This document shows, piece after piece, positions 5,551 to 55,282 of a stretch of DNA of 64,000 nt (position 1 is its first letter; each line of letters opens with the position of its first letter). The position numbers were made by a program, and so were the translations under genes. The stretch comes from Saccharicrinis fermentans DSM 9555 = JCM 21142 (GTDB taxonomy: Bacteria; Bacteroidota; Bacteroidia; Bacteroidales; Marinilabiliaceae). The notes beneath the pieces were generated by a model that saw only the letters and a list, made by a program, of their open reading frames with translations, had not been told where the DNA came from and made no database searches. Location: positions 2,663,980-2,727,979 of the forward strand of contig NZ_KI912107.1 of assembly GCF_000517085.1 (NCBI RefSeq). The letters are read 5' to 3'.

Positions 5551-5579
5551 TCTTTTGAACCTTTTCAAAATTAAATGAC

Positions 5580-33759: not shown

Positions 33760-33838
33760 AGATGGCGAGGTGTTAAAGTTGGCGAGCTGGCGAGTTGACA
33801 ACTAAAACAACTAAAACAATTACAACAACTTAACAACC
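33760..33838. repeat. Short-period GT/CA tract before cysC
   Basis: Left half is 'ggcgaggtgttaaagttggcgag', right half 'caactaaaacaactaaaac'; the two are complementary in places (GTTG with CAAC). It sits between the UpxY and cysC genes. Confidence 0.6.
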
Positions 33839-35503: not shown

Positions 35504-35577
35504 TCATCTAATTTGTGCGAATTGTCACTAATGGCTCGTTTAATTAACACAACTTTTAGTGAATTAATTGCAAGATA

Positions 35578-35964
35578 ATGGTTGAAGGCATTTTGTATAA
35601 AGAAGAAGCTTATCGTATCATTGGTGCGGCAATGGAAGTGCATAAAGAACTAAAAAATGGTTTCCTAGAAACTGTCTATCAAGAAGCTCTTGCTAAAGAA
35701 TTTAAGATACAAGATATTCCTTTCGAAAAAGAAAGCCTGATAAATATATATTACAAAGGTGAAAAATTAGGTAAATATTATAAAGCGGATTTCATTTGTT
35801 ATGGTGAAATAATTATTGAACTAAAAGCACTAAGTGATCTAACAAAGGATCATGAATCACAATTAATCAACTACCTTAAAGCCACAAACAAAAAACTAGG
35901 AATCCTTATTAATTTTGGAAAAACCAGTTTACAATACAAAAGAATCATAAACACCTTACATTAA
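35578..35964 (+). CDS. GxxExxY protein (PD-(D/E)XK-type), copy 1
   Basis: 128 residues. The family motif GFLETVY is at 28-34, and D71 with ELK (E81, K83) makes a PD-(D/E)XK nuclease-like core; the fold assignment is from family knowledge and activity is unproven. It interrupts the wzm-wzt pair. Upstream, 35510-35538 is related, in inverted orientation, to the sequence before wzt; downstream a 52-bp tandem array starts 6 bp after the stop. Confidence 0.85.
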   Translation: MVEGILYKEEAYRIIGAAMEVHKELKNGFLETVYQEALAKEFKIQDIPFEKESLINIYYKGEKLGKYYKADFICYGEIIIELKALSDLTKDHESQLINYLKATNKKLGILINFGKTSLQYKRIINTLH

Positions 35965-35970
35965 TTCACG

Positions 35971-36375
35971 TTAATCTATGTAAATTCGATGACAACAACA
36001 CTACACAATAAGGTAATCTGCGTTAATCCGTGTAAATTCGATGACAACAACACTACACAATAAGATAATCTGTGTTAATCCGTGTAAATTCGATGACAAC
36101 AACACTGCACAATAAGATAATCTGCGTTAATCCGTGTAAATTCGATGACAACAACACTACAAAATAAGATAATCTGCGTTAATCCGTGTAAATTCGATGA
36201 CAACAACACTGCACAATAAGATAATCTGCGTTAATCTGTGTAAATTCGATGACAACAACACTACACAATAAGATAATCTGTGTTAATCCGTGTAAATTCG
36301 ATGACAACAACACTACAAAATAAGATAATCTGCGTTAATCTGTGTAAATTCGATGACAGCAACACTACAAAAGCA
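35971..36375. repeat. Tandem array, 52-bp unit, about 7.7 copies
   Basis: Units start at 35971, 36023, 36075, 36127, 36179, 36231, 36283 and 36335 (last partial), differing at only a few positions (for example cg/tg at the end, g/a in 'ctacac/ctgcac'). Each unit contains 'gtaaattcgatgac', resembling the wzt start region ('caattcgatgacc', 36484-36496). There are no spacers. Confidence 0.92.
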
Positions 36376-36490
36376 ATTAAATTCGTGTCAATTAGCGTAA
36401 ATTCAATGACCGAGATAACTGCGCAAGCAATAACATTTCATTAAGATTTTCGTTGAACTTTAAAAATTCGCATTAATTCGCGACAATTCG

Positions 36491-37765
36491 ATGACCAAGA
36501 CTGTAATAAAAATAGAAAACCTATCCAAAATATACCGCCTGGGTGAAGTAGGCACAGGAACCTTGTCCCACGACCTCAACCGTTGGTTTAAGATGAACCT
36601 ACTGGGGCAAGACGACCCCTATGCCAAGGTAGGTCAGGTAAACGACCGCACCCAGAAAGCCGAGAAAGGAGAATTAGTTGCCGCCCTACGCGACATCAAC
36701 CTGGAAGTCAAACAAGGCGAGGTGCTAGGTATCATTGGTAAAAACGGAGCAGGAAAATCCACCCTCCTCAAGCTACTCTCCCGCGTCACCTCCCCCACCA
36801 CCGGTAGCATCAAAGTAAAAGGCCGATTAGCCTCCCTGTTGGAAGTAGGCACCGGCTTTCACCCTGAGATGACTGGACGGGAGAATATATATATGAACGG
36901 CACCATCATGGGCATGCGTAAATGGGAGATAGACCGAAAGCTGGATGAGATAGTGGACTTTGCCGGCGTAGCCAAATACCTGGACACCCCCACCAAACGC
37001 TATAGCAGCGGCATGACCGTACGCCTTGGATTCGCCATCGCCGCCCACCTGGAACCAGAGATACTGGTAGTAGATGAAGTATTGGCCGTAGGCGATGCCG
37101 AATTTCAAAAGAAGGCCATCGGTAAAATGCAGGATGTGAGTACCAATGATGGTAGGACTGTGTTGTTTGTGAGTCATAATATGGCAAGTATTACACAATT
37201 ATGCACAAAAGGTTTTATACTAGAAAACGGTCAATCAGCATATCAAGGTTCAACTGACGATGCGATCAATTATTATTTATCTAACTCAAAAAATAATAAT
37301 GACAAAAACATTGAGCAACGTGCCGATAGAATAAATGGTAGTAATTTTAGATTTACAGAATTGGTTCTAAAAACCAGAGATAATAAAATTATTGAAAATG
37401 CAACTAGCGGATTACCCATAAAACTAAAAATAAGCTACTCATTAAAACACCCTTTAAAAAATGTTTCTATAAGAGCTCTATTTATAAACAATAAAGGGCA
37501 GGAACTATTTCTATGTAACAATGCATTTTGTGATAAAAGAATCGACATTGAAAAAAATGGTACAATTACCTACTTTATACCCAAATTACCATTACCTGAT
37601 GGCCAATACTATATACAGCTAACTGCTTATTCTGAAAATGGAATTGAAGATGACATTGAAGGAGCTTATGAGTTAAATGTTGATATAGGAGATTACTATA
37701 ACACGGGAAAAGTCCCTGTGAAAAAAGATGGTTTATATATTGACCATAACTGTACCTATGATTAA
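36491..37765 (+). CDS. ABC polysaccharide exporter, ATPase subunit (Wzt-like)
   Basis: 424 residues. The ATPase domain (about 1-245) has Walker A GKNGAGKST, signature YSSGMTVRLGFA and Walker B ILVVDEVLAVGD. A C-terminal beta-sandwich (about 270-424, ending in the DGQYYIQL...DIGDYYNTGK pattern) is the Wzt sugar-binding domain that recognises the finished chain. The first 700 bp are GC-richer and the rest is AT-rich, with the change near 37180, so the two halves appear to have different histories. Confidence 0.9.
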   Translation: MTKTVIKIENLSKIYRLGEVGTGTLSHDLNRWFKMNLLGQDDPYAKVGQVNDRTQKAEKGELVAALRDINLEVKQGEVLGIIGKNGAGKSTLLKLLSRVTSPTTGSIKVKGRLASLLEVGTGFHPEMTGRENIYMNGTIMGMRKWEIDRKLDEIVDFAGVAKYLDTPTKRYSSGMTVRLGFAIAAHLEPEILVVDEVLAVGDAEFQKKAIGKMQDVSTNDGRTVLFVSHNMASITQLCTKGFILENGQSAYQGSTDDAINYYLSNSKNNNDKNIEQRADRINGSNFRFTELVLKTRDNKIIENATSGLPIKLKISYSLKHPLKNVSIRALFINNKGQELFLCNNAFCDKRIDIEKNGTITYFIPKLPLPDGQYYIQLTAYSENGIEDDIEGAYELNVDIGDYYNTGKVPVKKDGLYIDHNCTYD

Positions 37766-37800
37766 ATACCGAACGCGAATACAAGACTCAAAACTATAAA

Positions 37801-38514
37801 ATGCAAACTATAAAAAACATTCTCCCACTATTCATAAAAGAACCGATTGAAGAATACCAACGAAGAAAGTATTGCGCCAATAAATACAAAGGCGAAGAAC
37901 TAAAACAACCAGGCACCTATTACTCTCTTAATGCATTTGATTTTTACAAATGTATCTTTATACATGTACCTAAAGCAGCAGGTGTATCCATTAATAAAAC
38001 TTTATTTGGAAACCTTGCCGGAGGTCATTACACTGTAAAAGATTATCAAAACATATACAAACCTTCGACGTTAAAAAAATACTTTAAATTCACCATTGTT
38101 CGCAATCCTTATGACAGACTTTTTTCTGCTTACACGTTCTTGAAAAAAGGTGGTTTTAATAAAAAAGATGCAGAATGGGTCAACAACAATCTTAGAGATA
38201 TTCATAGTTACGAGCAATTTGTAAAAGAGTGGTTAACAACCGAACATGCCTATACTAAAAACCACTTTACACCTCAATACGAATACCTCATTAACAATAA
38301 CGGAGACATTGGAGTTGACTTTATAGGCAAGCTAGAAACCATAGATGAAGATTTTCTTACCATTTGCAATAAAATAGGCGTAAAGCGTGAATTAGTGCAT
38401 GCCAATAAAACAGGCCCCAGAGAAAAAGTAGTACTCGATACTGAAATGAAAAAAATGATACAAGAAGTCTATGCCAAGGACTTTGAACTCTTAAACTATT
38501 CGTATGACTACTAA
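37801..38514 (+). CDS. Sulfotransferase (family 2-like), carbohydrate-type
   Basis: 237 residues. CIFIHVPKAAGVSINKTLFG (51-70) is the 5'-phosphosulfate loop and FTIVRNPYDRLFSAY (97-111) the 3'-phosphate loop of PAPS-dependent sulfotransferases. Together with cysC upstream it should add sulfate to the polysaccharide or its lipid-linked intermediate. It overlaps the next glycosyltransferase gene by 11 bp. Confidence 0.87.
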   Translation: MQTIKNILPLFIKEPIEEYQRRKYCANKYKGEELKQPGTYYSLNAFDFYKCIFIHVPKAAGVSINKTLFGNLAGGHYTVKDYQNIYKPSTLKKYFKFTIVRNPYDRLFSAYTFLKKGGFNKKDAEWVNNNLRDIHSYEQFVKEWLTTEHAYTKNHFTPQYEYLINNNGDIGVDFIGKLETIDEDFLTICNKIGVKRELVHANKTGPREKVVLDTEMKKMIQEVYAKDFELLNYSYDY

Positions 38515-39433
38515 GTCAAACTTTATCACCATTATTGTTTGCACCTACAACCGTGCTGACATACTTAAAGAATGCTTAGAAGCCCTTTTTAACCAAACAG
38601 CATCTCAAAATTCATATGAGGTATTGGTAGTAGACAACAATTCACACGACCATACCAAACAACTAGTAGAGAGTTTTCAGCTTACACATACCAACTTACG
38701 TTATTACCTAGAAGAAAAACAAGGGCTGAGCCATGCGCGTAATGCGGGTTACTTAAACACTAAAGCCGAATGGATAGGCTACATGGATGACGATGGGAAA
38801 GCACATACTGATTACATAGAAAAAACATTTGAGGTGATCAACAACCATGATTTTGACTGCTTTGGTGGACGATACCACGCTTGGTATAGAACCCCAAAAC
38901 CTAAATGGCTAAGTAGTGACTTTGGTACATCACCAATACTAAATAATACAGTTGGCATTTTAAAAGAAGAACACAACTCTGGTGGTATTATCTTCTTTAG
39001 AACAGATGCTTTAAAGGCTGTTAATGGTTTCTCTACCAAAGTGGGCATGAGTGGTAATACAATTGCCTATGGTGAAGAGACTATGGTGCAGAATGAAATG
39101 AGAAAACTTGGCTTTATCATTGGCTATTCTCCATTTATAAGGATGGACCACTTGGTAGCTGAACATAAGTTCAAAGTTTCATGGCATTTAAAAGCAACTT
39201 ATGCACATGGTAGAGATGGTTATACAATTTGGAATAGCCAACCTATTAGCTTCACATTCTTCTTAAAACAGCTCATTAAAAACTTTTCACGAGGGTTTAC
39301 TAGAAATTTATATAAATTTATAGGCTCTAAAAGTTATTGCATTCAGAATTTAATTTACGACACAATGCAACCAAACCTTTTGTTGTTAGGCAAATATATA
39401 TCCCAATATTCACAATCTAAACATAAAGTATAA
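38504..39433 (+). CDS. Glycosyltransferase family 2
   Basis: 309 residues. FITIIVCTYNRADIL near the N-terminus, VDNNSHD, and MDDDGKAH (a DDD metal/UDP-sugar site near 91-94) show a GT-A fold GT2 enzyme. Like others in the cluster it should add one sugar to a lipid-linked chain; donor and acceptor are unknown. Translationally coupled to the sulfotransferase. Confidence 0.88.
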   Translation: MTTKSNFITIIVCTYNRADILKECLEALFNQTASQNSYEVLVVDNNSHDHTKQLVESFQLTHTNLRYYLEEKQGLSHARNAGYLNTKAEWIGYMDDDGKAHTDYIEKTFEVINNHDFDCFGGRYHAWYRTPKPKWLSSDFGTSPILNNTVGILKEEHNSGGIIFFRTDALKAVNGFSTKVGMSGNTIAYGEETMVQNEMRKLGFIIGYSPFIRMDHLVAEHKFKVSWHLKATYAHGRDGYTIWNSQPISFTFFLKQLIKNFSRGFTRNLYKFIGSKSYCIQNLIYDTMQPNLLLLGKYISQYSQSKHKV

Positions 39434-39443
39434 TTACATTCTG

Positions 39444-40391
39444 ATGACTGATAATGCACCTATTATATTTATCCATTACGGGAATAATCCATATTTAAAG
39501 TATGTTTTTAAAACAGCTAAAACTACCAACCCCAATAAAAAAATAATATTATTAGGTGATAATTCAAATAAAGAACTTGCTATTAAAAATGGTGTTGAAC
39601 ATTATGATTTTAAAGACTATGATAGAGGCGAACAATTAAATATATTCGAAAAATCATATAAATTTATTGCAGGAACGACACATGGAAGGGAAAATTGGAC
39701 GAAATTTGTTTTTAAAAGGTGGTATATTATGCGAGTCTTTCTAAAAACACATAATATTAATAGCTTTTGGACTTTTGACTCTGACAATTTAATACTGTGC
39801 AACTTAGAAGACCTTGAACCTGTATTAAATAATTTTGACTGTACCGAACAGTGCAAAGGTAATTGTATGAATGGCTACATCAGCAATTTTAATGTTGTAG
39901 ATGGCTATATCAAAAAAATGAATGAGTTATTTAATAGAGAAGAGTATATATCGCACCAAATTGATAACTTATCAAAACATCCTGATTTTGCTTACACAGA
40001 GATGAGAGCTTATGCCACTTACAAGAAAGAGGAAGGCATAAAAAGCAAACGGCTTTCTATCATAGAAAAAAACAAAGTTTTTGATGATGCGGTTTGTATT
40101 CCTGAAAACATGGAAGCTTATAACAAAAAACTGGGTGGATATAATCTAAAAAAAATATATTTTGCCAATAATGGTGAAGTATACTGCATCGAGAAGAAAA
40201 CAGGGGAATATATAAAGATGATGAATCTGAATTTAAGCTGGGTTCCATTATACATATTTGAAGATATATGTAAGCACGTAACACGCGCGCCTCGTATTAA
40301 AACAATTAAGCTTTATAATATACACAACGAACCATTTATATATAAACTACGAAATAACATAGCACGGATAAAAACATTTATAAGCCACTAA
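39444..40391 (+). CDS. Putative glycosyltransferase, GT-A-like
   Basis: 315 residues of no clear family. IIFIHYGNNPYLKYVFKTAKTTNPNKKIILLGD at the start and FWTFDSDNLIL (about 110-120, a DxD-type site) suggest a nucleotide-sugar transferase related to GT8/GT32-like enzymes. Its position in the polysaccharide operon supports this. The acyltransferase gene follows with TAATG overlap. Confidence 0.6.
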   Translation: MTDNAPIIFIHYGNNPYLKYVFKTAKTTNPNKKIILLGDNSNKELAIKNGVEHYDFKDYDRGEQLNIFEKSYKFIAGTTHGRENWTKFVFKRWYIMRVFLKTHNINSFWTFDSDNLILCNLEDLEPVLNNFDCTEQCKGNCMNGYISNFNVVDGYIKKMNELFNREEYISHQIDNLSKHPDFAYTEMRAYATYKKEEGIKSKRLSIIEKNKVFDDAVCIPENMEAYNKKLGGYNLKKIYFANNGEVYCIEKKTGEYIKMMNLNLSWVPLYIFEDICKHVTRAPRIKTIKLYNIHNEPFIYKLRNNIARIKTFISH

Positions 40392-41419
40392 TGCATACTA
40401 CACAAAACACCCAATGGCTAAATAACCTAAGAGTTTTTGCAACTATAGCTGTTATTACATTGCATACATGTGATAGTGTCTATCTGTTTAACATTTATAA
40501 TCTAAATAAATGGTGGGTCGCAAATATTATCGACAGTAGTGTCAGATCTTGTGTTCCGCTATTTTTTATGCTATCAGGTGCACTTCTACTTAACAAGAAT
40601 GAAACCTTGCACATATTTTTAAAAAAGAGATTTATACGAATCATATTGCCTTTCGTTTTTTGGTCATTAATATATATAGCCTACTGGCAAATACTCAAAA
40701 TTATAAACGGAGAAGAATTTGCCCTAAAAACATTTGTGCTATTTGCAATAAATAAACTAAAAACGGGTGCGGCGGTTCACCTTTGGTATATTTATACAAT
40801 ATTAGGTCTATACTTTACATTTCCAATTCTATCTAAGTGGATTAAAAATTGCAAAGAGATAGAAATTAGGTATTTTTTGATCATATGGGCAATAATTATC
40901 ATTTCGAACCTACCCTTAATTTCCTTAATAAAGCCTAACATCAATATGATGTTCTTTACAGGTTATATAGGATTTCCTGTGCTAGGATACTATTTAGACC
41001 AACATATCTCATTATCCCAAAAACATTATCCATTGTTAATGTATATTATAGGAACCGTAATAACAATTGTGGGCACCTACATAATTTCAAAGACACATAA
41101 CTCATTTCAACATGCGTTTTACGACTACATAACTCCAAACGTTATACTATCATCAATCGGTATATTTTTATTTGCTAAATACCTTAAAATAGATAATTTA
41201 ATTGTTTTAAAAATTATTAACACTATAAGTAAAAACAGTTATGGAATGTATTTAGTTCATATATTAATACTTCTACTAATGTCTAAAATAGGAATAAATA
41301 ATTCATTTACACACCCTGCTGTTGGAATACCTCTTACAACAATAATTTGTATCATTACCTCATATAGTGCAATTTCATTTTTAAAGAGGATTCCTTGGGG
41401 TAAATATATATCAGGTTAA
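40391..41419 (+). CDS. Acyltransferase 3 family O-acetyltransferase
   Basis: 342 residues with about ten transmembrane helices. WLNNLRVFATIAVITLHTC at 9-27 is the acyltransferase-3 N-terminus (histidine of the LRxxA...H pattern), and SCVPLFFMLSGALL follows. It likely acetylates a sugar hydroxyl of the polysaccharide at the membrane. Confidence 0.88.
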   Translation: MHTTQNTQWLNNLRVFATIAVITLHTCDSVYLFNIYNLNKWWVANIIDSSVRSCVPLFFMLSGALLLNKNETLHIFLKKRFIRIILPFVFWSLIYIAYWQILKIINGEEFALKTFVLFAINKLKTGAAVHLWYIYTILGLYFTFPILSKWIKNCKEIEIRYFLIIWAIIIISNLPLISLIKPNINMMFFTGYIGFPVLGYYLDQHISLSQKHYPLLMYIIGTVITIVGTYIISKTHNSFQHAFYDYITPNVILSSIGIFLFAKYLKIDNLIVLKIINTISKNSYGMYLVHILILLLMSKIGINNSFTHPAVGIPLTTIICIITSYSAISFLKRIPWGKYISG

Positions 41420-41451
41420 AAGGCCAATAACGTAATTAATTGTATTTCCAA

Positions 41452-42348
41452 ATGAAAAAAAAACTTGCTCCAATAGTACTTTTTGTGTATAACAGGCCTA
41501 TACACACGTTAAAAACACTGGAAGCATTAACAAACAACACCTTGGCTAATGAGTCAACGCTATATATCATCGCTGATGGGCCAATGCAAAATGCAAGTGA
41601 CGAAAACATACTTGCAATAAAAAAAACAAGAGAAATAATAAGAAAAGAAAAGTGGTGTAAAGAAGTTATTATTGAAGAAAAAGAGAGCAATAAAGGTCTA
41701 GCTCCTTCTGTGATTGAAGGAGTAACAAATATTGTTAACAAACATGAAAAAATAATTGTACTTGAAGATGATTTAATAACGTCAATCCATTTTCTTGAGT
41801 TTATGAACGAAGGCCTTTATAAATATGAAAAAAAAGCAAATATATATTCTATAAATAGCCATATGTTTCCGATTGAAGCAAAGGAATCAAAATCAGTATT
41901 ATTACCAATGACTACAACATGGGGATGGGCAACTTGGAAGGAGAAGTGGAAATGTTTTGAAGTTAATACAGATATAAATACACCAATTTTCACTAATCCT
42001 CACCTACAAAATAGATTTAATCTACCTAGCTACGATTATACCCAAATGTTGCTAAAAGCAAAACATTCGTGGGGAATCCATTGGTATTATTCGGTATTTA
42101 AACGAAATGGCCTCGGTGTTTTTCCTACACAGTCTCTTGTTTCGAACATCGGTTTTGATGGAAGTGGAGTAAATTGCGGAACGGAGTTGACTAGTAGCTT
42201 TATACACCAAGGAAAAATTAAAGTATTAATTGAAGATACTATTGATATTTATTTTTACAGTCTTTATCTTAACTATTTCGACAAAAAAAGCAAGTCCAAA
42301 GCACTTTCTACAAGGATCATTCGCAGGATATTAAACAAACTAAAATGA
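41452..42348 (+). CDS. Glycosyltransferase, GNT-I/GT13-like or GT2-like
   Basis: 298 residues from the ATG at 41452; the TTG at 41440 is not needed. [23 protein letters not shown] and [11 protein letters not shown] (EDD metal site) followed by [13 protein letters not shown] match the sugar-transferase family common in Bacteroidota capsule loci. The ATG of the next gene overlaps its stop (ATGA). Confidence 0.82.
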
Positions 42349-42977
42349 TTAAACGAATTGTTTTATACCTTATTAAAAAGTTATTTCAGGTTGAAGGTGT
42401 AGCATCTGCCATACAGCGTCAACTTGATCTCAACAAAACAAACAACAACAACAATGCATGTTTGATTTACGGTAAAGAAACTGTGCTTCATTCAGATGCA
42501 ATAATATTAAATGGAACAAACAAAAAGGAAAACATTTCGCTTGGAGACAATTGTTTATGTAGAGGTACTCTTCTAACTTTCAACTATGGCGGAATAATAA
42601 GCATTGGTAACCATTGTTATATAGGTGATTTAGTTCGAATCTGGTCGGCAGAAAAAATTAGTATAGGTAATGATGTACTGATATCACATAATGTAAACAT
42701 AATAGATACAGATTCACATGAATTAAACAGCATAGAACGAAAAGAAAATGGCCGAAAAATTCTAAAGGATGGGCTAATTCTTCCTAAAGGAAACGTAAAA
42801 TCAGCCCCCATCATTATTGAAGACAATGTGTGGCTTAGTTTTAATGTAAGTGTTTTGAAAGGGGTAACAATTGGCAAAGGGGCAGTAGTGGCAGCAGGGT
42901 CCGTTGTAACTAAGAATGTAGCCTCTTATACATTAGTTGGAGGCACCCCCGCTAAATTCATAAAGAAACTATGTTAA
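42345..42977 (+). CDS. Acyltransferase with hexapeptide repeats (LbH), 1
   Basis: 210 residues with left-handed beta-helix repeats from about residue 60 ([27 protein letters not shown]). The active histidine region is [10 protein letters not shown] and a typical end is [20 protein letters not shown]. Serine O-acetyltransferase/WbbJ type; it probably acetylates a sugar. It overlaps its neighbours on both sides. Confidence 0.88.
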
Positions 42978-43585: not shown

Positions 43586-43587
43586 AC

Positions 43588-45602: not shown

Positions 45603-45670
45603 TTACCCTTAAGCAGAAAATGGCTATAAGGAGTTTTAAACATGAGTAGCACTACTAATTTTAAGAGTTT

Positions 45671-46360: not shown

Positions 46361-46367
46361 ATATAAT

Positions 46368-47357: not shown

Positions 47358-47361
47358 TAAA

Positions 47362-48606
47362 ATGGATCGACCACTAAAAATTGCAGTTGTCACTGCTTTG
47401 TTTCCTAAAATATCTGAAACGTTTATATTAACACATGTTGCGGCTCTTATTGAAGCCGGCCATCAGGTAACCGTTTTTGCGACCGATTATAGGGAATCGG
47501 AAGATATTCACCCCATTTTTAGTGAATACAATATGAAAGCAAAAACGGTATACAAAATTGATGTGCGAAATCCAATAAAGAGGATCGCACTAATACCATT
47601 TTTATTTCTAAAAAACATTAAACATCATCGAGCTTTAATCAAATCATTTTCACCTAAATACTATGGCTCATATGCGTTAAAAGGCTATTTTTTCTATGAC
47701 GTATTATCATTTATTCACCCTGCAAAATTCGATATTATTCACTGTCATTTTGGACCCAATGCCTCCAAAGTCGCAATGATTAGGCAATTGGGCATACTCC
47801 AAGGTAAGTTAATATGCACATTTCATGGCCATGACATAAATGATCAAAGGGAAATTCAAGGTCAGTATAATTATAAATATTTAATGCCTGATTTATCCGC
47901 AGCCATTTGTGTTGTCGATTATATAAAATTTAAACTGGTCAGTTTATTTGCACCAAAATATAAGGTGTATAAAAATCCTGTAAGCGTAAACATTAATCAA
48001 TTCAAACTAAAACAATTTTCATCAGAGCATTCCCCTCTTTCATTTATAAGTGTTGGAAGAGTCATCGATTGGAAAGGGCAATTAGAAACCGTTAAAGCCT
48101 TTAAAAACATAAGCACTCAATATCCACAATTAGATTTTCAATACACCATTATAGGAGAAGGACCCGACTTGGATGAAATAAGAGAATTCATTGCAATAAA
48201 CAAGCTAGGCCATAAAATACATACAATTGGCTCTAAACCACAAGGAGAAGTAGTAAGCCAACTACAAAAATCAGATGTCTTAATTTTATTTGGAAGGAAG
48301 GATAAATATCAAAACATCGATGCACAAGGCACAGTTGTTCAAGAAGCACAAGCCACTGGCACTCCCGTAATTGTCTCGGATGCAGGTGGATTGCCTGAAG
48401 GAATGATTAATTACGTAACCGGTTTGGTTGTACCAGAAAACAACACCGATGAATTAGAAAATGCCATTCTTAATTTTTATAACAACCGTGATCAAATAAA
48501 AACCATGGGCTTAGCGGGTAGAAAATTTGTAGAAGAAAATTACGCTAATGAGGTTGTATATAAAAGGCTTTTCGAAATTTACAATCAAATGATAGAAAAT
48601 AATTAG
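47362..48606 (+). CDS. Glycosyltransferase family 4, WcaL/colanic-acid type
   Basis: 414 residues. IAVVTALFPKISETFILTHVAALIEAGH is the N-terminal pattern of colanic-acid-type GT4 enzymes, and ISVGRVIDWKGQLETVKAF plus EAQATGTPVIVSDAGGLPEG form the GT-B donor half. Predicted retaining transferase of lipid-linked chain extension. It is 4 bp from its upstream neighbour. Confidence 0.92.
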   Translation: MDRPLKIAVVTALFPKISETFILTHVAALIEAGHQVTVFATDYRESEDIHPIFSEYNMKAKTVYKIDVRNPIKRIALIPFLFLKNIKHHRALIKSFSPKYYGSYALKGYFFYDVLSFIHPAKFDIIHCHFGPNASKVAMIRQLGILQGKLICTFHGHDINDQREIQGQYNYKYLMPDLSAAICVVDYIKFKLVSLFAPKYKVYKNPVSVNINQFKLKQFSSEHSPLSFISVGRVIDWKGQLETVKAFKNISTQYPQLDFQYTIIGEGPDLDEIREFIAINKLGHKIHTIGSKPQGEVVSQLQKSDVLILFGRKDKYQNIDAQGTVVQEAQATGTPVIVSDAGGLPEGMINYVTGLVVPENNTDELENAILNFYNNRDQIKTMGLAGRKFVEENYANEVVYKRLFEIYNQMIENN

Positions 48607-48607
48607 T

Positions 48608-49552
48608 ATGCCAAAGGTTTCAATCCTAATTCCCCTCTATAATTCTGAAAAATATATTGCTGATACAATTCAATCGGCATTAAATCAAACCTATCCTAAC
48701 ATAGAGGTAATAATTGTAGATGACGGTTCTAGGGACAACAGCTTTTCCATTGCTAAACAATTTGAATCGAAACAAGTAACGGTACTTTCACAAAAGAACA
48801 AAGGGGCATCTACAGCCCGCAATAAAGCATTTGAAAATTGTACAGGTGAATTGATTCAATACCTTGATGCTGATGATTTATTACACCCAGATAAAATTAA
48901 ATTACAAGTTGAGGAATATTACAAACATCAAAACCCCGATATTCTTTTAAGTGGCACTTGGGGGCGTTTTACGCTTGATGAAAATCAGGTGCAATGGGAA
49001 AAACAAACTCTAAACAAAAACTATTCTCAACCCATTGAATGGCTTATTGACGCATGGAATGGCCTAGGTATGGCGCAACCAGGCACTTGGTTGACACCCC
49101 GAAAACTGATTGAGAAAGCGGGACCATGGAATGAAACCCTTTCATTAAATGACGATGGTGAGTTTTTCTCAAGAGTAATCCTTTCAGCAGAAAAAATTAT
49201 ACATATAGCAGAAAGTAAAGTATACTATCGATCTCAGTTAAGTGACAGTTTAAGTCAATGCCGAAGTAAGAAAGCCATTAAATCTGAGTTAAATTCGTAC
49301 AAATTATACGCCAAACATTGTTTAATACACACACAATCAATTGCCCTTAGAAAGGCACTTGCCAGTAACTTTCTAAATTTCAGCTATCAATACCATTCAA
49401 GTTTTAATGAATTAGTACTAGAGGCTAAAAATGAGTTTCAGTCCCTTAATATTGGCAAAATGTGGCCAGTAGGCCCTAGACGATTTAAATGTATAGCTTA
49501 TATTATTGGTTTTGAGAATACACTCAAATTAAAACAACTGTTAAGAATTTAA
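48608..49552 (+). CDS. Glycosyltransferase family 2
   Basis: 314 residues with VSILIPLYNSEKYIADTI, VDDGSRDNSF and YLDADDLLHPDK. GT-A fold. It is contiguous with flanking glycosyltransferases (1-2 bp spacing). Specificity unknown. Confidence 0.9.
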   Translation: MPKVSILIPLYNSEKYIADTIQSALNQTYPNIEVIIVDDGSRDNSFSIAKQFESKQVTVLSQKNKGASTARNKAFENCTGELIQYLDADDLLHPDKIKLQVEEYYKHQNPDILLSGTWGRFTLDENQVQWEKQTLNKNYSQPIEWLIDAWNGLGMAQPGTWLTPRKLIEKAGPWNETLSLNDDGEFFSRVILSAEKIIHIAESKVYYRSQLSDSLSQCRSKKAIKSELNSYKLYAKHCLIHTQSIALRKALASNFLNFSYQYHSSFNELVLEAKNEFQSLNIGKMWPVGPRRFKCIAYIIGFENTLKLKQLLRI

Positions 49553-49554
49553 AA

Positions 49555-50364
49555 ATGATTTCAATAGTCCCCGGTGGCGGTTTAGCCAATCGTATGAGAG
49601 CCATTGACTCGGCCATTGCTTTAACGAGAAATACAGTGAAAATTATCTGGTTAAAGAACAAAGACCTTAATTGTGACTTTTATCAACTCTTTAAACCTCA
49701 CCATTTGTTTAGGGTAGTAGATTTTAATTACTCCAAATTTTATGCCTATCCAAACTATCTATTTTGTAGGGCTAAAAAGTTAAAATATCTTCAAGAGATA
49801 GTACGTAAGTTTCTATTTAATCAAGTTTTCACAAACCCAGATATTGAAGAGATTAATTCAAAAGGGGGTAGTGGCATTAAAAATCTAAAATCCAACAAAA
49901 TGTTTATTGAGACGTGTGAACGTTTTGACAATACAAAAAAGATGCATGAAATATTTATCCCAACCGATGCAATTCAAAGTAGGGTCGATTCCATCATCAA
50001 TAATAATCATAATTTTATTGGAATTCATATTCGCAGAACCGATAATATATACGCTATCATTGAAAGTCCATTGTCTCTTTACTTGGAAGCCATAGAAAAA
50101 CAGCTTGCGCTGGATCCAAATGTTAAGTTCTTTTTAGCGACAGATGATAAAGACATAAAGAAAGAGCTGTTGGAGAAATATCCTAAACATATTTTTACAA
50201 ATGAAACTCCCCTATCTCGCAATTCAGCAGAAGGAATAAAAGGTGCATTGGTGGATTTTTTATGTTTATCAAATGCGAAATTAATCATTGGTTCCTCAAG
50301 CTCTTCTTTTTCATCAGAAGCAGCAAACTATGGCAACATTGATCTTACCATTCTTAAGAAGTAA
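49555..50364 (+). CDS. Fucosyltransferase-fold protein (GT11/GT23-like)
   Basis: 269 residues. PGGGLANRMRAIDSAIAL at 6-23 and GIHIRRTDN at about 157-165 match the GDP-fucose-binding HxRRxD motif of alpha-1,2/1,6 fucosyltransferases and related protein-O-fucosyltransferase folds, and IIGSSSSSFSSEA is the later motif. GDP-fucose is the likely donor, though no GDP-fucose synthesis genes are in this window. Confidence 0.7.
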   Translation: MISIVPGGGLANRMRAIDSAIALTRNTVKIIWLKNKDLNCDFYQLFKPHHLFRVVDFNYSKFYAYPNYLFCRAKKLKYLQEIVRKFLFNQVFTNPDIEEINSKGGSGIKNLKSNKMFIETCERFDNTKKMHEIFIPTDAIQSRVDSIINNNHNFIGIHIRRTDNIYAIIESPLSLYLEAIEKQLALDPNVKFFLATDDKDIKKELLEKYPKHIFTNETPLSRNSAEGIKGALVDFLCLSNAKLIIGSSSSSFSSEAANYGNIDLTILKK

Positions 50365-50393
50365 TATTTTATTTAACTAATAAATGTAGTAAT

Positions 50394-51443
50394 ATGAAAA
50401 GTATTATTGTTAGCCCATCGGGTTACTACTATGGTAGCGAGCAAATGTTACATGAATACCTCATTTATACCAAGAATATTTTTAAGGTTTATGTTAATAT
50501 TCCTGGAACATATCATACTAAATTAAAAGAATCAAAACTACAACATAAACTAATTGGTTTCAAATCAACAAAGCTTTTGTATGCAAAAATTGCACTATTA
50601 TTACTTTTCAGAAATTACGAATCTTTGTATGTCAATGAAGGAGGCCATATTAAATACATTAAACTACTTGCAAAAGTATTCAAATCTAAAAAATTCGTGG
50701 TACATATTCGTCTTGTTGAAGACACCAGAAACAATCGTTTAGATAATTTTATCTCCACTAACATTCAACTTATTTGTGTATCCAATTTTATTGAACAAGA
50801 AATTATACGAAACAACCCTAATATTAACCCACAACAGCTTTTAACAGTACACGACTATTATATCCCCAATATTATTACGCAACCAATCGAAAAAAAATTA
50901 GATATAATAAGAATTGGAATCATTGGCAGGGTATCTAAAGCAAAAGGTGTATCCAGAGCTAAAGAGTTGCTTCAATATTGGGATAATAACTATCAAGAGC
51001 CTATTGAGTTCTACTTCTATGGAGATATTATCGATGATTCTGAAGTACTTCTATTTAAAGATGCCATTAAATCGTTTAAAAGAATAAAAGTATTTTTCAA
51101 AGGATTTGTTTCTAACAAAGAATCATTTTTTAAGTCGTTTGATATGGTCATTCATTTCAATGCTTTTGAACCCTTTCCTAGAATATATTTTGATTCAATG
51201 GCCAGATTGAAGCCCGTATTAGGATTTGATTCCGGAGGGATTGGCGAACAAGCCAGAATATTTGGATTTGAAGATATTTTAGTAAATATTGACAATAATT
51301 GGCCTGAAAAAATGTGTAAAAAGATAATGTCCGTCTCAGAAAATTTGTATCAGCACCAACTTGCCATCTACAATAAGAAGAGCTTATTTTTAACAAAACT
51401 AAACGTTGAAACCTATATTAACATCATTGAATCATATCTTTAG
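50394..51443 (+). CDS. Glycosyltransferase family 4
   Basis: 349 residues. IRIGIIGRVSKAKGVSRAKELL (about 180-200) and FEPFPRIYFDSMARLKPVLGFDSGGIGE (about 257-285) represent the GT-B donor half, although the usual EG(F/A)G...E pattern is weakened. Specificity unknown. Confidence 0.8.
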   Translation: MKSIIVSPSGYYYGSEQMLHEYLIYTKNIFKVYVNIPGTYHTKLKESKLQHKLIGFKSTKLLYAKIALLLLFRNYESLYVNEGGHIKYIKLLAKVFKSKKFVVHIRLVEDTRNNRLDNFISTNIQLICVSNFIEQEIIRNNPNINPQQLLTVHDYYIPNIITQPIEKKLDIIRIGIIGRVSKAKGVSRAKELLQYWDNNYQEPIEFYFYGDIIDDSEVLLFKDAIKSFKRIKVFFKGFVSNKESFFKSFDMVIHFNAFEPFPRIYFDSMARLKPVLGFDSGGIGEQARIFGFEDILVNIDNNWPEKMCKKIMSVSENLYQHQLAIYNKKSLFLTKLNVETYINIIESYL

Positions 51444-51449
51444 ATAGCA

Positions 51450-52775
51450 ATGTCCAAACTAGCCATCCTCCACTACCTCCCCCTCGAATACTACCCACCT
51501 GTTACCAATTTAATCGATTATATTGCCAGTGAGCGAGCAGAAGATTTTACAAAGGTAAAGGTATTTAGTTGTTGGAATATAAAGGGACGCAAAGCATATA
51601 GATCATTATCTCAGAAGATCAATAGCAAAAATACAAATCAGCCTAAATACCAAAATTCTAATAATCTAAAAGCGGAGCGATCTAAACAGCTTATAAGCTT
51701 ATTTCGCTCTCCTTTCCCCAAAGAAACCGACAACAGCATCATCCGCCTCCTCAAGTACCTACATTACAACCTCTTCACGTTTTTGAACCTATTGATCTTT
51801 CGGCCTAATGCCCTTCTATACTACGAAAGCTACTCCGTCTGGCCAGCATATATTTACACCCGATATTTTAACCGCAAGTGCCGTATCTTTATCCATCATC
51901 ATGAGTATGCTTCAAAAGAATGGTATTCTAAAACCATGAAACAGGTAAAATTTTTTCATAAACTTGAAAAAAGATGGCTCTATCCTCGTGCACAATGGAT
52001 CAGTCAGACCAATGCAGATCGCTTAAACTTTTTTCATCAGGATCACCCTTATCTTAAAGCTGAACAATTAAGAATAATGCCCAATTATCCTCCAAAGAGT
52101 TGGCGCATTAAAGAATTAGCACAGCAACATATTTGCAAATTACATAATAAATCGGAAGCAAAAAGCCAACAAGCTAACCGGCTAATAAGCTCCAAAGCTA
52201 ATCCGCTAAAACTCATCTACGTGGGTTCTCTCTCTTTCCAGTCGACTTATTTAAAAGAATTATGTGAATGGGTACTTCAACAAGAAGGAAAAATCCAATT
52301 TGATGTATATGCCTATAATTTATATGATGATGTAAAGGCGTATTTAAGCGGGTTAAATTCATCGTGGATCAAATACTATGAAAAAGGCATAGAATATGAT
52401 GATCAACCTAAGCTATTGAGTCAATATGATGTGGGGTTAATTTTGTACAAAGCCCATAACCAAAACTACACCTACAATGCCCCAAATAAACTTTTTGAAT
52501 ACTTAGCATGCGATTTGGATGTTTGGTATCCTGATGTATTGCAGGGACCCAAGCCGTATAATACAGAAGATGTATTTCCTAAGGTAGTTCCTGTAAATTA
52601 TGAAAATCTGGAAAGCTTTGATTTTACTAAAGCTATTAATAAAGAAGGTTGTGGCTATAAACCATCAGAGTTTTTTTGTGAGGAAGTATACTCCGATCTG
52701 GTTGATGAAATAAATAAAACCACTAAGAAAAAAAATAACATTGCGACCTTCCCGGTAAAAAAAGGTAACCGCTAA
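51450..52775 (+). CDS. Glycosyltransferase-like protein with internal repeat tracts
   Basis: 441 residues. IFIHHHEYASKEWYSKTMKQ and KLIYVGSLSFQSTYLKEL suggest a GT-B enzyme of a type found in Bacteroidota capsule loci. Two short stretches look repeat-derived: 51657-51704 (residues about 70-85) and 52163-52212 (residues about 239-254), each made of degenerate 8-bp units such as 'gctaatcc' and 'gctaataa'. The C-terminus NIATFPVKKGNR reads into the GCTAAG/TTTGCGACC repeat that flanks the next gene, so the original stop may have been displaced. Confidence 0.7.
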   Translation: MSKLAILHYLPLEYYPPVTNLIDYIASERAEDFTKVKVFSCWNIKGRKAYRSLSQKINSKNTNQPKYQNSNNLKAERSKQLISLFRSPFPKETDNSIIRLLKYLHYNLFTFLNLLIFRPNALLYYESYSVWPAYIYTRYFNRKCRIFIHHHEYASKEWYSKTMKQVKFFHKLEKRWLYPRAQWISQTNADRLNFFHQDHPYLKAEQLRIMPNYPPKSWRIKELAQQHICKLHNKSEAKSQQANRLISSKANPLKLIYVGSLSFQSTYLKELCEWVLQQEGKIQFDVYAYNLYDDVKAYLSGLNSSWIKYYEKGIEYDDQPKLLSQYDVGLILYKAHNQNYTYNAPNKLFEYLACDLDVWYPDVLQGPKPYNTEDVFPKVVPVNYENLESFDFTKAINKEGCGYKPSEFFCEEVYSDLVDEINKTTKKKNNIATFPVKKGNR

Positions 52776-52837
52776 GACGCTGAGAAGGCGCTAAGTTCGC
52801 TGAGATAAAAAAAGAAACTTTGCGACCTCTGCGGTTA
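52767..52837. repeat. 71-bp direct repeat, left copy
   Basis: Exactly identical to 53340-53410. Begins 'aaccgctaagacgctgag' and ends 'gacctctgcggtta'. The left copy overlaps the last codons of the glycosyltransferase and ends 12 bp before the GxxExxY start. Confidence 0.95.
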
Positions 52838-52849
52838 AGAAAATAAACT

Positions 52850-53227
52850 ATGAATGAAAATGATATTGCTTCAAAAGTTATTGGTGCCGCTATAGATGTT
52901 CACAAAGCACTAGGCCCAGGACTTCTCGAAAAAGCCTATCAAGAATGTTTATATTACAAACTGATGCAAGCAGGTCTTCAAGTTGAAAAGGAAAAACCTA
53001 TGCCATTAACATTTGAAGACGTAAAACTTGAATGTGGATACAGGATTGATATTCTAGTTGAGAACAAAGTAGTTATTGAACTAAAGAGTGTAGAATCATT
53101 AAATGAAGTACATTTAGCACAAACTTTAACCTATATGAAATTAGGCAGCTATAAACTAGGCTTGCTCATTAACTTCAATGTAGCTTTATTAAAACAAGGC
53201 ATTAAAAGAGTTGTAAATAACTTATAA
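52850..53227 (+). CDS. GxxExxY protein (PD-(D/E)XK-type), copy 2
   Basis: 125 residues. GLLEKAY (24-30) is the family motif; D67 and IELK (E77, K79) are at the same spacing as in the copy at 35578 (D to E is 10 residues). The two copies are only distantly similar in sequence. It is bracketed by exact 71-bp direct repeats. DNA cleavage is inferred from the fold family, not shown. Confidence 0.87.
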   Translation: MNENDIASKVIGAAIDVHKALGPGLLEKAYQECLYYKLMQAGLQVEKEKPMPLTFEDVKLECGYRIDILVENKVVIELKSVESLNEVHLAQTLTYMKLGSYKLGLLINFNVALLKQGIKRVVNNL

Positions 53228-53242
53228 AAAGAACACTATAAT

Positions 53243-53337
53243 GAAACCGCTAAGGATACGTTAAGTGCGCTAAAAAAAAAGAAGCTTTGCGACCCCTGCG
53301 GTTAAATTTCTCCTCTCCGTCCTCTGCGGTTAAAAGA
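53243..53337. repeat. Diverged copies of the CGCTAAG/TTTGCG repeat
   Basis: 'accgctaaggatacgttaag', 'ctttgcgacccctgcggtta' and 'cgtcctctgcggttaaa' are variants of the 71-bp repeat segments, placed between the GxxExxY stop and the right 71-bp copy. Confidence 0.75.
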
Positions 53338-53339
53338 GG

Positions 53340-53410
53340 AACCGCTAAGACGCTGAGAAGGCGCTAAGTTCGCTGAGATAAAAAAAGAAACTTTGCGACC
53401 TCTGCGGTTA
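53340..53410. repeat. 71-bp direct repeat, right copy
   Basis: Exact copy of 52767-52837, 573 bp downstream, 43 bp before the next glycosyltransferase start. Confidence 0.95.
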
Positions 53411-53453
53411 TTTTTTTGCATGCTGGGTTATTTTTCACTTTACAATACACAAT

Positions 53454-54518
53454 ATGAATATCCTCTACATAGGCCAATATACTAGCGGAACCACCAGTAA
53501 GATGCGGGCTGATCAATTGAAGAAAATCCTTCAGCCAGATAACTTTCATATTATCAATACCCATATCCCCTTTTTCCAATGTCATCGAGTATGGCGTTCT
53601 TTTGGATTTCGATATAAGAGAGGCCCCCTTATTTCTAGGATCAACAAATATATTATAGATCAATTAAACAAATTAACTGCTGACCATAGGAATCAAAACT
53701 CAACAACACCACAATTTAATATGGTTTGGGCAGATAAAGCCATTTTCTTAACACCTAAAACAACAAAACACCTTAAGTCACTTACTGATAAACTAGTCCA
53801 CTTCACCCCTGACCCCGCTTTTACTTTTCATCAATCGCATCTATTCAGAAGGTCATTAACAAATTATGATTTTGCGATAACTACCAAAAAATATGAGCTA
53901 AGTTATTTTGAAGCTCACTTAAAAAAAGAACAGATTATATATGCTACTCAGGGATTTGACACAAATTTACACCAACCTATTACTAAATTCAATGAAAAAA
54001 AAGATGGTCTTCTATTTATCGGTCATCATGAAAAAGAACGTGAAATGTTCGTTCAAAAAATGATCGAATCAAAAATACCAGTTTCTATTGCTGGGATAAA
54101 GTGGGAACCTTTTGTCGCAAAAAACAAAGAAAATTTCTATTTAAATTATCTTGGTGATGGTATTTATGGGCAAGAATACGTTAAAGCCATATCAGCATTT
54201 CAATTCTCCTGGGGGTCTGTATCCAAATGGATTCCTGAACTCCACACCACTCGTACCTTTGAAATACCTGCCTGTGGCACTGCACTGATTACAGAGCGCA
54301 ACGAAGAGACTACATCTTTTTTTACAGAAGAAGAAGTAATATTTTACGACAGCATAGAAGAAATGATCGATAAAATAAAGTATTATCAATCCCATCCAGA
54401 TAAACTGGAATTACTTACCCTTAAGGGAACTAAAAGAGTAAATAAAGATGGAAGAGATTACGAATCTATTTTAAGGAAAGTACTCGAGGAGATAGGGGGG
54501 AGAGGGTTAGAGGGTTAG
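53454..54518 (+). CDS. Glycosyltransferase, CgeB-like (GT-B)
   Basis: 354 residues. NILYIGQYTSGTTSKMRADQL, then HFTPDPAFTF, LLFIGHHEKEREMF and TRTFEIPACGTALITERNEE, the pattern of CgeB/GT1_2 enzymes. The last ten residues (EEIGGRGLEG) are encoded by the start of a GAGGATTA-type repeat tract, so the native C-terminus has probably been altered. Confidence 0.82.
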   Translation: MNILYIGQYTSGTTSKMRADQLKKILQPDNFHIINTHIPFFQCHRVWRSFGFRYKRGPLISRINKYIIDQLNKLTADHRNQNSTTPQFNMVWADKAIFLTPKTTKHLKSLTDKLVHFTPDPAFTFHQSHLFRRSLTNYDFAITTKKYELSYFEAHLKKEQIIYATQGFDTNLHQPITKFNEKKDGLLFIGHHEKEREMFVQKMIESKIPVSIAGIKWEPFVAKNKENFYLNYLGDGIYGQEYVKAISAFQFSWGSVSKWIPELHTTRTFEIPACGTALITERNEETTSFFTEEEVIFYDSIEEMIDKIKYYQSHPDKLELLTLKGTKRVNKDGRDYESILRKVLEEIGGRGLEG

Positions 54519-54755
54519 AGGGTTAGAGGATTAGAGAGTTAGAGGATTAGAGGAATAGAGGAATAGAGGAAATAGAGGGGTAGATTATTAGAGGAAATAG
54601 AGGGGTAGATTATTAGAGGAGGTAGAGGATTAGAGAGGTAGAGGAATAGAGGATTAGCTTATTAGAGGGTTTACTAACTATACCGCTAACATGCTAACAC
54701 GCTAATCTGCTAACACGCTAATCTGCTAATATACTAATCCGCTAACAATTTCTTC
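54501..54755. repeat. Period-8 tract, left of the four-helix-bundle gene
   Basis: From 54501 to about 54672 units are of type 'agaggatt' (agagggtt, agaggaat and variants). From 54681 the units are 'gctaacat', 'gctaacac', 'gctaatct', 'gctaatcc', running into the 3' end of the next gene. Both halves have an 8-bp period. Confidence 0.85.
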
Positions 54756-55102
54756 CTTTCTTTTGATATTAAACTATTAAGCATTTTTGTGATTTCAATA
54801 CCTAAACCTTCCAGTTCTTCCAATTTGTTATCATCGATTAGATTGATATTGTGCAATAATAAAACTACGGTGATGGCTTCGTATAAAGAACCTCGTGAAA
54901 TATATAAAAAATGGATAAACTCTTTTGTTGAAACCCGTCCTTTACCTTCAGCTATATTTTGAGGTACTGAGGCTGCAGCAGCTTCGAGCTGTTCCAATAA
55001 TCGATAATGTCCTTTAATTTCATTTGTTAATGCTAGTATGATTTTGGTGAATTCTATAGCTTTTTGCCAAACCAAAAGATTTTTAAAGGAGTAAAAAGAC
55101 AT
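54734..55102 (-). CDS. Four-helix-bundle protein (S23/23S rRNA intervening-sequence type)
   Basis: About 122 residues from MSFYSFKNLLVWQKAIEFTK. The pattern KNLLVWQKA...LEQLEAAAASVPQNIAEGKGR...FLYISRGSLYEAIT is the standalone version of the S23 family known from rRNA intervening sequences. No rRNA gene is nearby, and the function is unknown. It is on the opposite strand to the operon and is flanked on both sides by period-8 GCTAA tracts; the left tract encodes its last codons. Confidence 0.85.
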   Translation of the reverse strand: MSFYSFKNLLVWQKAIEFTKIILALTNEIKGHYRLLEQLEAAAASVPQNIAEGKGRVSTKEFIHFLYISRGSLYEAITVVLLLHNINLIDDNKLEELEGLGIEITKMLNSLISKERKKLLAD

Positions 55103-55154
55103 CATTTCAAAATTTAACAGTTCATTCACTAGTAATTTACAACTTAATTATTTC

Positions 55155-55243
55155 AAAAACCAGTCCCTAATTTGCTAAAATGCTTATCCGCTAACAAGCT
55201 AATCTGCTATAACGCTAATCCGCTAAAATACTAACATGCTAAT
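55155..55243. repeat. Period-8 tract, right of the four-helix-bundle gene
   Basis: Units 'gctaaaat', 'gcttatcc', 'gctaacaa', 'gctaatct', 'gctaatcc' and 'actaacat' with an 8-bp period. They match the left-hand tract (54681-54750) in the same orientation. Confidence 0.8.
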
Positions 55244-55282
55244 CATCTTTTTCCCTATATTAGTCCACCACAAACAAACTAC

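Follow-up and report, generated by a model that had tools for sequence, protein, structure and literature searches.

In a 64,000-nucleotide stretch of the genome of Saccharicrinis fermentans DSM 9555 (contig NZ_KI912107.1, positions 2,663,980 to 2,727,979; the whole stretch is hereafter called the window), a polysaccharide locus holds three small-protein genes bordered by short repeats, two of them encoding GxxExxY proteins and one encoding a four-helix-bundle (FHB) protein of the 23S rRNA IVP/S23 family. Having followed these genes into related genomes, other phyla and plasmids, we think it reasonably likely that they represent two families of minimal insertion elements, which have the anatomy of 23S rRNA intervening sequences and lie in protein operons. 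Each element consists of a single open reading frame (ORF), for FHB/S23 or for GxxExxY, and two flanking arms that are inverted with respect to each other and made of short quasi-periodic units; several arrivals are seen at the same junctions, and gene-less arm tracts occur with the same polarity as the gene-bearing elements. An earlier note on this DNA had proposed a general class of repeat-plus-small-protein element that inserts in surface loci; the class itself proves largely right, with the corrections that the arms are inverted and that the elements are not confined to surface loci.

Inverted arms in excess over other genes

Among 61 genomes (60 relatives and the genome of the window itself, G000), GxxExxY genes above the cut-off were found in 41 and FHB genes in 50. 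From the matches listed, 100 stretches were picked by hand, a sample rather than the full set of matches, and together with the window these provided 71 GxxExxY and 63 FHB ORFs, genes being simple ORF calls rather than those of a trained caller. For each gene, we scored the 350 bp before it against the 350 bp after it, the latter taken in reverse complement, leaving out two ORFs of each family that lacked full flanks. The median inverted-arm score was 31 for GxxExxY (n=69) and 33 for FHB (n=61), compared with 19 for the controls, 555 other genes from these stretches (area under the curve, AUC, 0.888, p 1.5e-26, and 0.906, p 4.4e-26, respectively). The 95% point of these controls (25) was exceeded by 43 of 69 GxxExxY and 43 of 61 FHB genes, and their 99% point was reached by 21 and 22. 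Controls taken genome-wide (259 genes from 20 roughly evenly spaced G000 stretches) gave the same median of 19 and a 95% point of 24, which 53 of the 69 and 47 of the 61 reached. Direct repeats were considered as the main feature and rejected, their excess (AUC 0.74 for GxxExxY, 0.59 for FHB) being weaker than that of inverted ones. Other genes among the controls also have strong inverted or direct flank matches (L126 8591-9110, L161 6949-8859 and L141 2054-3281); these are possibly further cassette gene types or neighbours of gene-less tracts.

The arms belong to individual elements. The median score of FHB elements with their own arms (33) fell to 18 when arms were swapped, and to 19 when they were swapped within one genome; the own arm pair ranked in the top 5% for 46 of 61 FHB and 36 of 69 GxxExxY elements of the relatives, for 26 of 76 GxxExxY loci in a second set from close relatives (genome_contigs, from which 4 of 80 loci had been dropped), and for 8 of 150 controls. 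In this second set, 58 of the 76 loci exceeded the 99% point of shuffled sequences. The same anatomy extends to Acidobacteria, Planctomycetota, Treponema and Ignavibacteriota, where 7 of the 8 GxxExxY loci in this set lie above the shuffle 99% point; all eight of these genomes carry FHB too, and 19 of 28 FHB loci tested there (2 fragment loci of 30 were left out) surpass the pooled 99% point with inverted arms that are mostly heptameric. Carriage by phages or plasmids was considered and rejected: in a tblastn search with one member per family, GxxExxY matched 8 of 72,556 plasmid records and FHB matched 30, while 50,697 phage records gave no match to either. All 13 plasmid copies that were fetched (from 10 of the 30 FHB and 3 of the 8 GxxExxY records) were above their own shuffle 99% point, the hosts being cyanobacteria throughout for FHB, and Bacteroides, Sphingomonas and Gemmatirosa for GxxExxY.

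Might small accessory genes simply happen to lie in a repeat-rich, recombining surface locus? The many gene-less tracts of the window are in keeping with this, as is its density of tandem repeats, seven-fold higher than in the other parts of the genome that were sampled: the 64 kb of the window have 14 merged tracts, or 21.9 per 100 kb, and a 400-kb sample of this genome has 12, or 3.0 per 100 kb, of which several are one CRISPR-like array. However, the arm excess holds both over genes of the same stretches and over genes sampled elsewhere in the genome, the arms are specific to each element, and the same anatomy is met outside surface loci and in other phyla; we regard such a coincidence as very improbable. 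The earlier note had staked its proposal on an excess of flanking repeats over other small genes, and because inverted-arm scores are in excess for both families, it is upheld on this point, as it is by the repeat density of the window. A CRISPR-like array with the repeat CCCTTAATCGTACCATACTGGAATTGAAAC occupies 976-7062 of stretch L318 (G000:C3, about 5.30 Mb).

The two families share their layout, as the note had supposed and as the flank comparisons bear out. It had called their repeats unrelated and, in part, direct, which is not supported: the arm type is particular to each family, and the relation that matters is one of inversion rather than of direct repetition. FHB arms are built of tandem 7-8-bp units that vary from element to element (GGCAGAA, AGTATCA, TTAGGC, CAGTCTT and others), and self-identity of the flanks is raised at lags of 7 (0.357), 8 (0.326), 14 (0.342) and 21 (0.336) over controls (0.283-0.290). 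The two arms of one FHB element are complementary to each other and unlike those of other elements, even in the same genome. GxxExxY arms instead draw on related motifs, CACAAAG, CACGGAG and CGCAAAG (CRCARAG), with CACAGATT and GCGAATTA types (CGAATT/CAGATT) in addition, and do so in other phyla as well. At the 76 GxxExxY loci, CGCAAAG occurs 69 times within 200 bp upstream and 19 times downstream, and its complement CTTTGCG 17 times upstream and 81 times downstream. Elements measure about 430-750 bp (10-90% range).

Placement between co-directional genes

Most elements occupy gaps between co-directional genes (57 of 69 GxxExxY, p 0.0018; 54 of 60 FHB, p 1.8e-5; two GxxExxY and three FHB ORFs had no neighbour on one side), and such gaps make up 66% of noncoding bases. 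Among 63 clear-armed elements with co-directional neighbours, the median distance from the upstream stop to the 5' arm is 11 bp (quartiles 1 and 80), and that from the 3' arm to the next ORF is 23 bp (quartiles 11 and 126). The elements examined lie between protein genes, and not within a 23S rRNA gene.

In such gaps, 109 of 111 elements in the relatives are in sense orientation. This would suit an RNA-level intervening sequence, whose arms pair in the operon mRNA so that RNase III cuts out the cassette, with selection acting on the RNA stem. FHB is the S23 protein, and the intervening sequence of Coxiella 23S rRNA is described in a passage of PMC4990558 as having terminal inverted repeats that form a 28-bp stem, heptameric repeats ahead of its ORF, and excision by RNase III. 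Against this, some copies are antisense (the FHB gene of the window, the Nostoc nrdB|nrdA copy, and copies in Calothrix and Stanieria), and the mismatches between arms point elsewhere: FHB arms have 110 of G.U type and 156 of A.C type (p 0.006 in the opposite direction), and GxxExxY arms 103 and 125 in one set and 148 and 158 in the other. Since a sense-strand RNA stem should favour G.U mismatches, and these are not in excess, selection on such a stem was rejected as unsupported, and we consider the RNA-level explanation unlikely.

Half of the elements (65 of 129) share their junction with another element. Recurrent junctions, whose gene names were checked on one member each, include mutA|mutB, prfA|pyrF, hisA|hisF, gmd|fcl and the position before ruvA, among others, while a Wzm/Wzt-type transporter gene junction holds six elements, the window's included. 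At three of them (mutA|mutB, gmd|fcl and an RND adaptor|pump-like junction), FHB is found in some genomes and GxxExxY in others. Insertion specifically into surface loci, as the note had it, is not supported: many recurrent junctions are housekeeping ones (mutA|mutB, hisA|hisF, prfA|pyrF, before ruvA), and copies on plasmids are found in operons of cas, nrd and fab genes (cas6|cas4 twice, cmr2|cmr3, nrdB|nrdA in antisense, and Sphingomonas fabD|fabG). The two cas6|cas4 junctions and the cmr2|cmr3 junction, all fetched, show the insertion anatomy. Crowding was seen in places: at the wzm|wzt junction, a GxxExxY element lies within an apparent remnant of an older GxxExxY copy (L102, about 5515-5645) and a tandem GxxExxY pair occurs at L156 5696-7420, and stretch L087 (G029:C4:16501-36500) has five GxxExxY matches in about 13 kb, with 84% identity between two of them over 791 bp.

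Occupied sites, empty sites and descent

Occupied and empty sites, which the earlier note had suggested comparing between strains, were found both between genomes and between plasmids (loci in reverse orientation were not taken further). At mutA|mutB, within the genus, six genomes have FHB, G006 has a decayed GxxExxY gene with arms, and G000 has a 92-bp gap with, by eye, arm-like sequence only. At prfA|pyrF, G000 has no element (93 bp) and G006 a scar resembling a 3' arm. Before ruvA, G001 has an empty junction of 39 bp, and here the end of the upstream protein differs between states, QGWNALA* where empty, and QGWNALTGNNEQ*, QGWNNE* or QGWNAIGKH* where occupied, in line with the claim that gene ends are altered.

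Three junctions on Nostoc plasmids carry an element in some plasmids and none in others, the flanks being 91-96% alike, and a further record (L341, 88%) has arm-like sequence without a gene in the element's place. At the A|B junction, TTCTA flanks the element on either side and is present once where the site is empty, a candidate 5-bp duplication; at the TraM junction, about two dozen bases are replaced. In stretch L155, two GxxExxY copies are 84% alike over 461 bp, arms included, and have unrelated flanks.

In protein trees (FastTree, midpoint root, support values unused), FHB proteins group by junction, with 33 label changes against a mean of 46 after shuffling (0 of 500 shuffles as low) and 6 of 10 junctions monophyletic, and do not group by genome (46 changes against 43.6). 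Because FHB groups by junction and not by genome, these elements would be mostly inherited in place, with occasional arrivals. GxxExxY proteins group only slightly by junction (51 against 55.9, 0 of 500 as low; 0 of 7 shared junctions monophyletic) and show 49 changes against 51.6 by genome (45 of 500 as low); arrivals at junctions thus seem more frequent for GxxExxY than for FHB. A copying burst inside one genome was rejected, the trees being without clear grouping by genome.

Inheritance in place, the sharing of junctions, and arms that abut the next start codon would all fit cassettes that serve the host, that is, intercistronic hairpins kept for tuning the expression of partner genes. Such a role is harder to square with junctions that are empty in congeners and sister plasmids, with two unrelated protein families alternating at three junctions, and with the decayed copies and gene-less scars recognised by eye in L165, L169 and L341; we consider it quite unlikely.

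The proteins and a possible mechanism

The GxxExxY proteins are of the PD-(D/E)XK nuclease family (PDDEXK_3), matching PF13366 and having the catalytic residues E27, D67, E77, K79, Q91 and Y95; in 64 of 64 long sequences (of 71), H18, G24, E27, Y30, D67, E77, K79, Q91 and Y95 are invariant. The structure model (pLDDT 94.6) has as its nearest folds in the PDB Cas4 SSO0001 (probability 0.99, E 0.012) and lambda exonuclease (0.94, 0.02). GxxExxY resembles this family in predicted fold and in the invariant E, D, ExK and QxxxY residues, a motif correspondence with Cas4, and differs from it in its minimal size (125 residues) and in that its cassette includes neither a cas1 nor a recombinase gene as partner. 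Avd, of the diversity-generating retroelements, is a relative of FHB. GxxExxY is named beside a reverse transcriptase in a passage of the open-access paper PMC8934634.

We favour a DNA-level element that uses the pairing of its arms, and infer the movement step itself. The element would enter a gap as DNA, breaking no gene, and its ORF would be read along with the operon. The paired arms could form a hairpin or cruciform, to be processed by the element protein (for GxxExxY, a nuclease resembling Cas4 and lambda exonuclease) or by host enzymes, and this processing might lead to excision, copying or replacement. Pairing-driven repair would maintain the likeness of the two arms, while loss of the ORF would leave arm tracts and altered gene ends.

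A number of observations weigh against these elements being mobile insertions of this kind. About one-third of family genes lack clear inverted arms. A single repeated segment in L309 fixes the 99% point of the genome-wide controls at 109.5, and all family genes fall short of this value. Between co-directional neighbours, 298 of 334 ordinary genes are in sense as well, so that element orientation is informative only if the elements are insertions, and 3 of 10 cyanobacterial plasmid copies are antisense. No clear target-site duplication was found at the TraM and B|C junctions in Nostoc, no excision, copying or transposition was observed, and recent hopping of FHB seems rare, most copies apparently being inherited in place. 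FHB is not known to have catalytic activity, and the Foldseek matches of the GxxExxY model are weak, none having E <= 0.001 (best E 0.012, with a query TM of 0.58). The window's own copies are poor examples, the two GxxExxY copies being weak; GxxExxY-2 lies between whole 79-nt copies whose hairpins are not above shuffles. In L309 (11957-15134), three called genes lie within near-identical flanks (score about 200), probably an insertion-sequence repeat.

The three cassettes of the window

The window carries, on its + strand, a polysaccharide locus with genes for a Wzt-like ATPase, sulfotransferase, glycosyltransferases, acyltransferase and epimerase; of 10 locus genes scanned, 9 matched polysaccharide-type families and 1 matched no family. 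In this genome of 5.98 Mb, the window accounts for both GxxExxY genes and for one FHB gene out of three. That three such genes lie here, each with repeats, is confirmed by profile matches and repeat searches alike. They had been described as interrupting a single operon, which is correct as to their location in the locus, whereas FHB is antisense to it. The repeats had likewise been tied to these three cassettes; they are real, and further short-period tracts in the window have neither gene. The features are as follows.

33746-33838, + strand: gene-less tract GGCGAGTTG...CAACTTAACAACC ahead of the adenylylsulfate kinase gene; hairpin at the 99% shuffle level only
34432-34657, + strand: two tandem gene-less tracts of the 33746-33838 type, from the kinase gene to the ABC permease; 88-bp unit, hairpins not clearly above shuffles
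35503 and 36491: neighbours of GxxExxY-1, the end of the ABC permease ORF and the start of the Wzt-like ATPase ORF
35504-35577, + strand: 5' flank of GxxExxY-1, decayed arm-like TCATCTAATTTGTGCGAATTGTCACTAAT; weak pairing with 36381-36409, reached by 3% of shuffles
35578-35964, + strand: GxxExxY gene 1, PD-(D/E)XK nuclease family (TIGR04256, 147.7 bits, 1.7e-43; PF13366, 1.7e-39)
35969-36369, + strand: 52-bp tandem array GCGTTAATCCGTGTAAATTCG, 7.7 copies, 94%
36370-36490, + strand: outer sequence of GxxExxY-1 resembling a 3' arm (ATTCGTGTCAATTAGCGTAAATTC...AATTCGCGACAATTCG)
52759-52837, + strand: 79-nt copy 1 (AACCGCTAAGACGC...GCGACCTCTGCGGTT), read as an arm pair without a gene; hairpin score within shuffles
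52850-53227, + strand: GxxExxY gene 2 (TIGR04256, 148.5 bits, 9.7e-44; PF13366, 2e-42)
53226-53304, + strand: diverged 79-nt copy, 61% to copy 1
53332-53410, + strand: 79-nt copy 2, 96% to copy 1
54501-54668, - strand: inverted-type tract downstream of FHB (CTCTAATCCTCTAACC in gene sense)
54684-54747, - strand: tract downstream of FHB, same unit as the 5' arm in direct orientation (TTAGCAGATTAGCG)
54734-55129, - strand (antisense to the locus): FHB gene, 23S rRNA IVP/S23 family (TIGR02436, 97.4 bits, 5.2e-28; PF05635, 6.5e-29)
55173-55242, - strand: upstream (5') arm of FHB, TTAGCGGATTAGC 8-bp units in gene sense
46-133, 19429-19594, 27321-27410, 29048-29360 and 60820-60927: further tracts with neither gene

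Inverted arms typical of the family are significant in the window for FHB only, the two GxxExxY copies being marginal (reached by 3-14% of shuffles). Period-8 tracts surround FHB at 54501-54747 and 55173-55242, and the pairing of 54580-54668 with 55188-55282 is reached by 0 of 300 shuffles under lenient and 1% under strict scoring. GxxExxY-1 has a 52-bp amplification where a clean 3' arm is expected; this array is probably amplified 3'-arm sequence, and its reading as a CRISPR array was rejected, the units being near identical end to end (94%) and without spacers. A congener (stretch L161) has, by eye, clearer arms at the same junction. Two neighbouring ORFs end within repeats, that at 51450-52775 (no family match; ...KKGNR*) within 79-nt copy 1, and the glycosyltransferase-like one at 53454-54518 (...RGLEG*). 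The cassette ORFs match PF13366 or PF05635 only, and no transposase gene, and in particular no HUH (Y1) transposase, was found among them by family profiles; with PADLOC defence models, FHB and GxxExxY-2 had no match and GxxExxY-1 had one 40-residue match at 6e-4.

Elsewhere in this genome, the second FHB gene (L003 1468-1854; G000:C3, about 1.31 Mb) lies out of frame within a 744-codon ORF that stays open, and the third (L004) lies, by eye, between hsdM-like and hsdS-like genes. The 744-codon ORF appears methyltransferase-like by eye, with repeat-rich stretches on both sides of FHB. A tandem repeat at 26502-26639 of the window (47 bp, 2.8 copies) is unrelated in sequence to the other window repeats.

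Gene-less arm tracts

The arm unit of the window FHB (a threefold GCTAANNN) has 16 occurrences in G000, forming nine tracts, of which eight, its own included, lie within 108 kb around the window; it is absent from eight congeners. AGTATCAAGTATCAAG, an FHB arm in several congeners, occurs once in G000, 34 times in G001, 8 in G002, 26 in G003, 10 in G004, 69 in G005, 10 in G006, 4 in G007 and 0 in G008. Twenty G005 stretches picked among the AGTATCAAGTATCAAG matches listed contain no FHB or GxxExxY ORF. Of their 22 gene-less tracts, 15 lie between co-directional ORFs in the orientation of a 3' arm, 13 of them within 50 bp of the next start; the others are reversed (2, in L351), in mixed-orientation stretches (4, in L350, L355 and L359) or between convergent ORFs (1). 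A dispersed gene-less module was also noticed on both strands of the window, with CAACAACTCGCC and GCTAACAA tracts, several of them beside a conserved leader like ATGGAAGATATTTATTAAATGAGAAACACAACT (1-150, 19400-19594, 27321-27440, 29048-29400, 60800-60927 and 61010-61093).

Relation to known systems

The REP/RAYT (TnpA-REP) system comprises short palindromic or inverted intergenic units, many of them gene-less, with few gene-bearing copies between such units. The present elements are alike in having gene-less copies and few gene-bearing ones flanked by the same units, and differ in their FHB or PD-(D/E)XK protein and in arms that are tandemly built and up to about 100 bp long. With the 23S rRNA intervening sequence, FHB elements share the Pfam family of the ORF (PF05635, FHB only), the terminal inverted repeats and heptameric repeats, which a passage of PMC4990558 places before the ORF; by analogy, the FHB form may be its counterpart in protein operons. 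The present elements differ in lying between cistrons and in having tandem 7-8-bp arms of element-specific sequence, and the GxxExxY protein, though unrelated, shares this lifestyle. The S23/IVP family is known as well from bacteria of the candidate phyla radiation (CPR), in which rRNA insertions with and without ORFs are reported (PMC11270868).

Heptamers have been described before. Those of Xanthomonas and Nostoc (GGGAATC and GGGGA(C/T)T, period 7) lie between aligned ORFs, the G-rich ones within 50 bp after sense-strand stops or before antisense-strand starts; inverted pairs number 70 and 75 in two Xanthomonas genomes, while Nostoc PCC 7120 has few, and none on plasmids (PMC4692102). Their placement matches the polarity of the G005 gene-less tracts; they differ in being described with no protein attached to them, and the terms S23, four-helix and intervening do not occur in the text of that paper. 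The TAACTGA heptamers of Beggiatoaceae, cyanobacteria and Bacteroidetes are intergenic, mostly just before a start codon, and have a patchy spread that suggests transfer by a mechanism which was not evident (passages of PMC4679880). They are alike in period and intergenic location, and differ in being direct (with one inverted set), S23 having no mention in those passages. S23/IVP genes are also reported in cas loci in a passage of PMC3936711, and a figure legend of PMC10910872 names a CRISPR-linked 23S rRNA IVP.

Parts of this are thus known already, namely S23 in rRNA intervening sequences, heptamer repeats, and S23 in cas loci, while their union appears undescribed: the open-access papers searched, subscription papers and most preprints lying outside the search, yielded no account of S23 or GxxExxY genes that lie in operon gaps across phyla between inverted arms specific to each element, nor any of the arm-like sequence words.

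The FHB and GxxExxY cassettes have the look of a minimal type of genome insertion that has so far escaped notice. Tentatively, and with somewhat more doubt than belief, we suggest that FHB/S23 and GxxExxY could be the gene-bearing partners of two widespread intercistronic insertion systems, whose gene-less arms would be the intergenic heptamers, long without an explanation, of Xanthomonas, cyanobacteria and Beggiatoaceae and the CTTTGCG-type repeats that many genomes have, and that several 'CRISPR-associated' S23 genes could be simply insertions into cas operons. If this is true, the S23 family and the little-studied GxxExxY nucleases would gain a setting outside rRNA, some of the short repeats between operon genes that lack an explanation would be accounted for, S23/IVP genes in cas loci would serve as a warning against guilt by association, and how sequence enters operons without breaking them would become testable.

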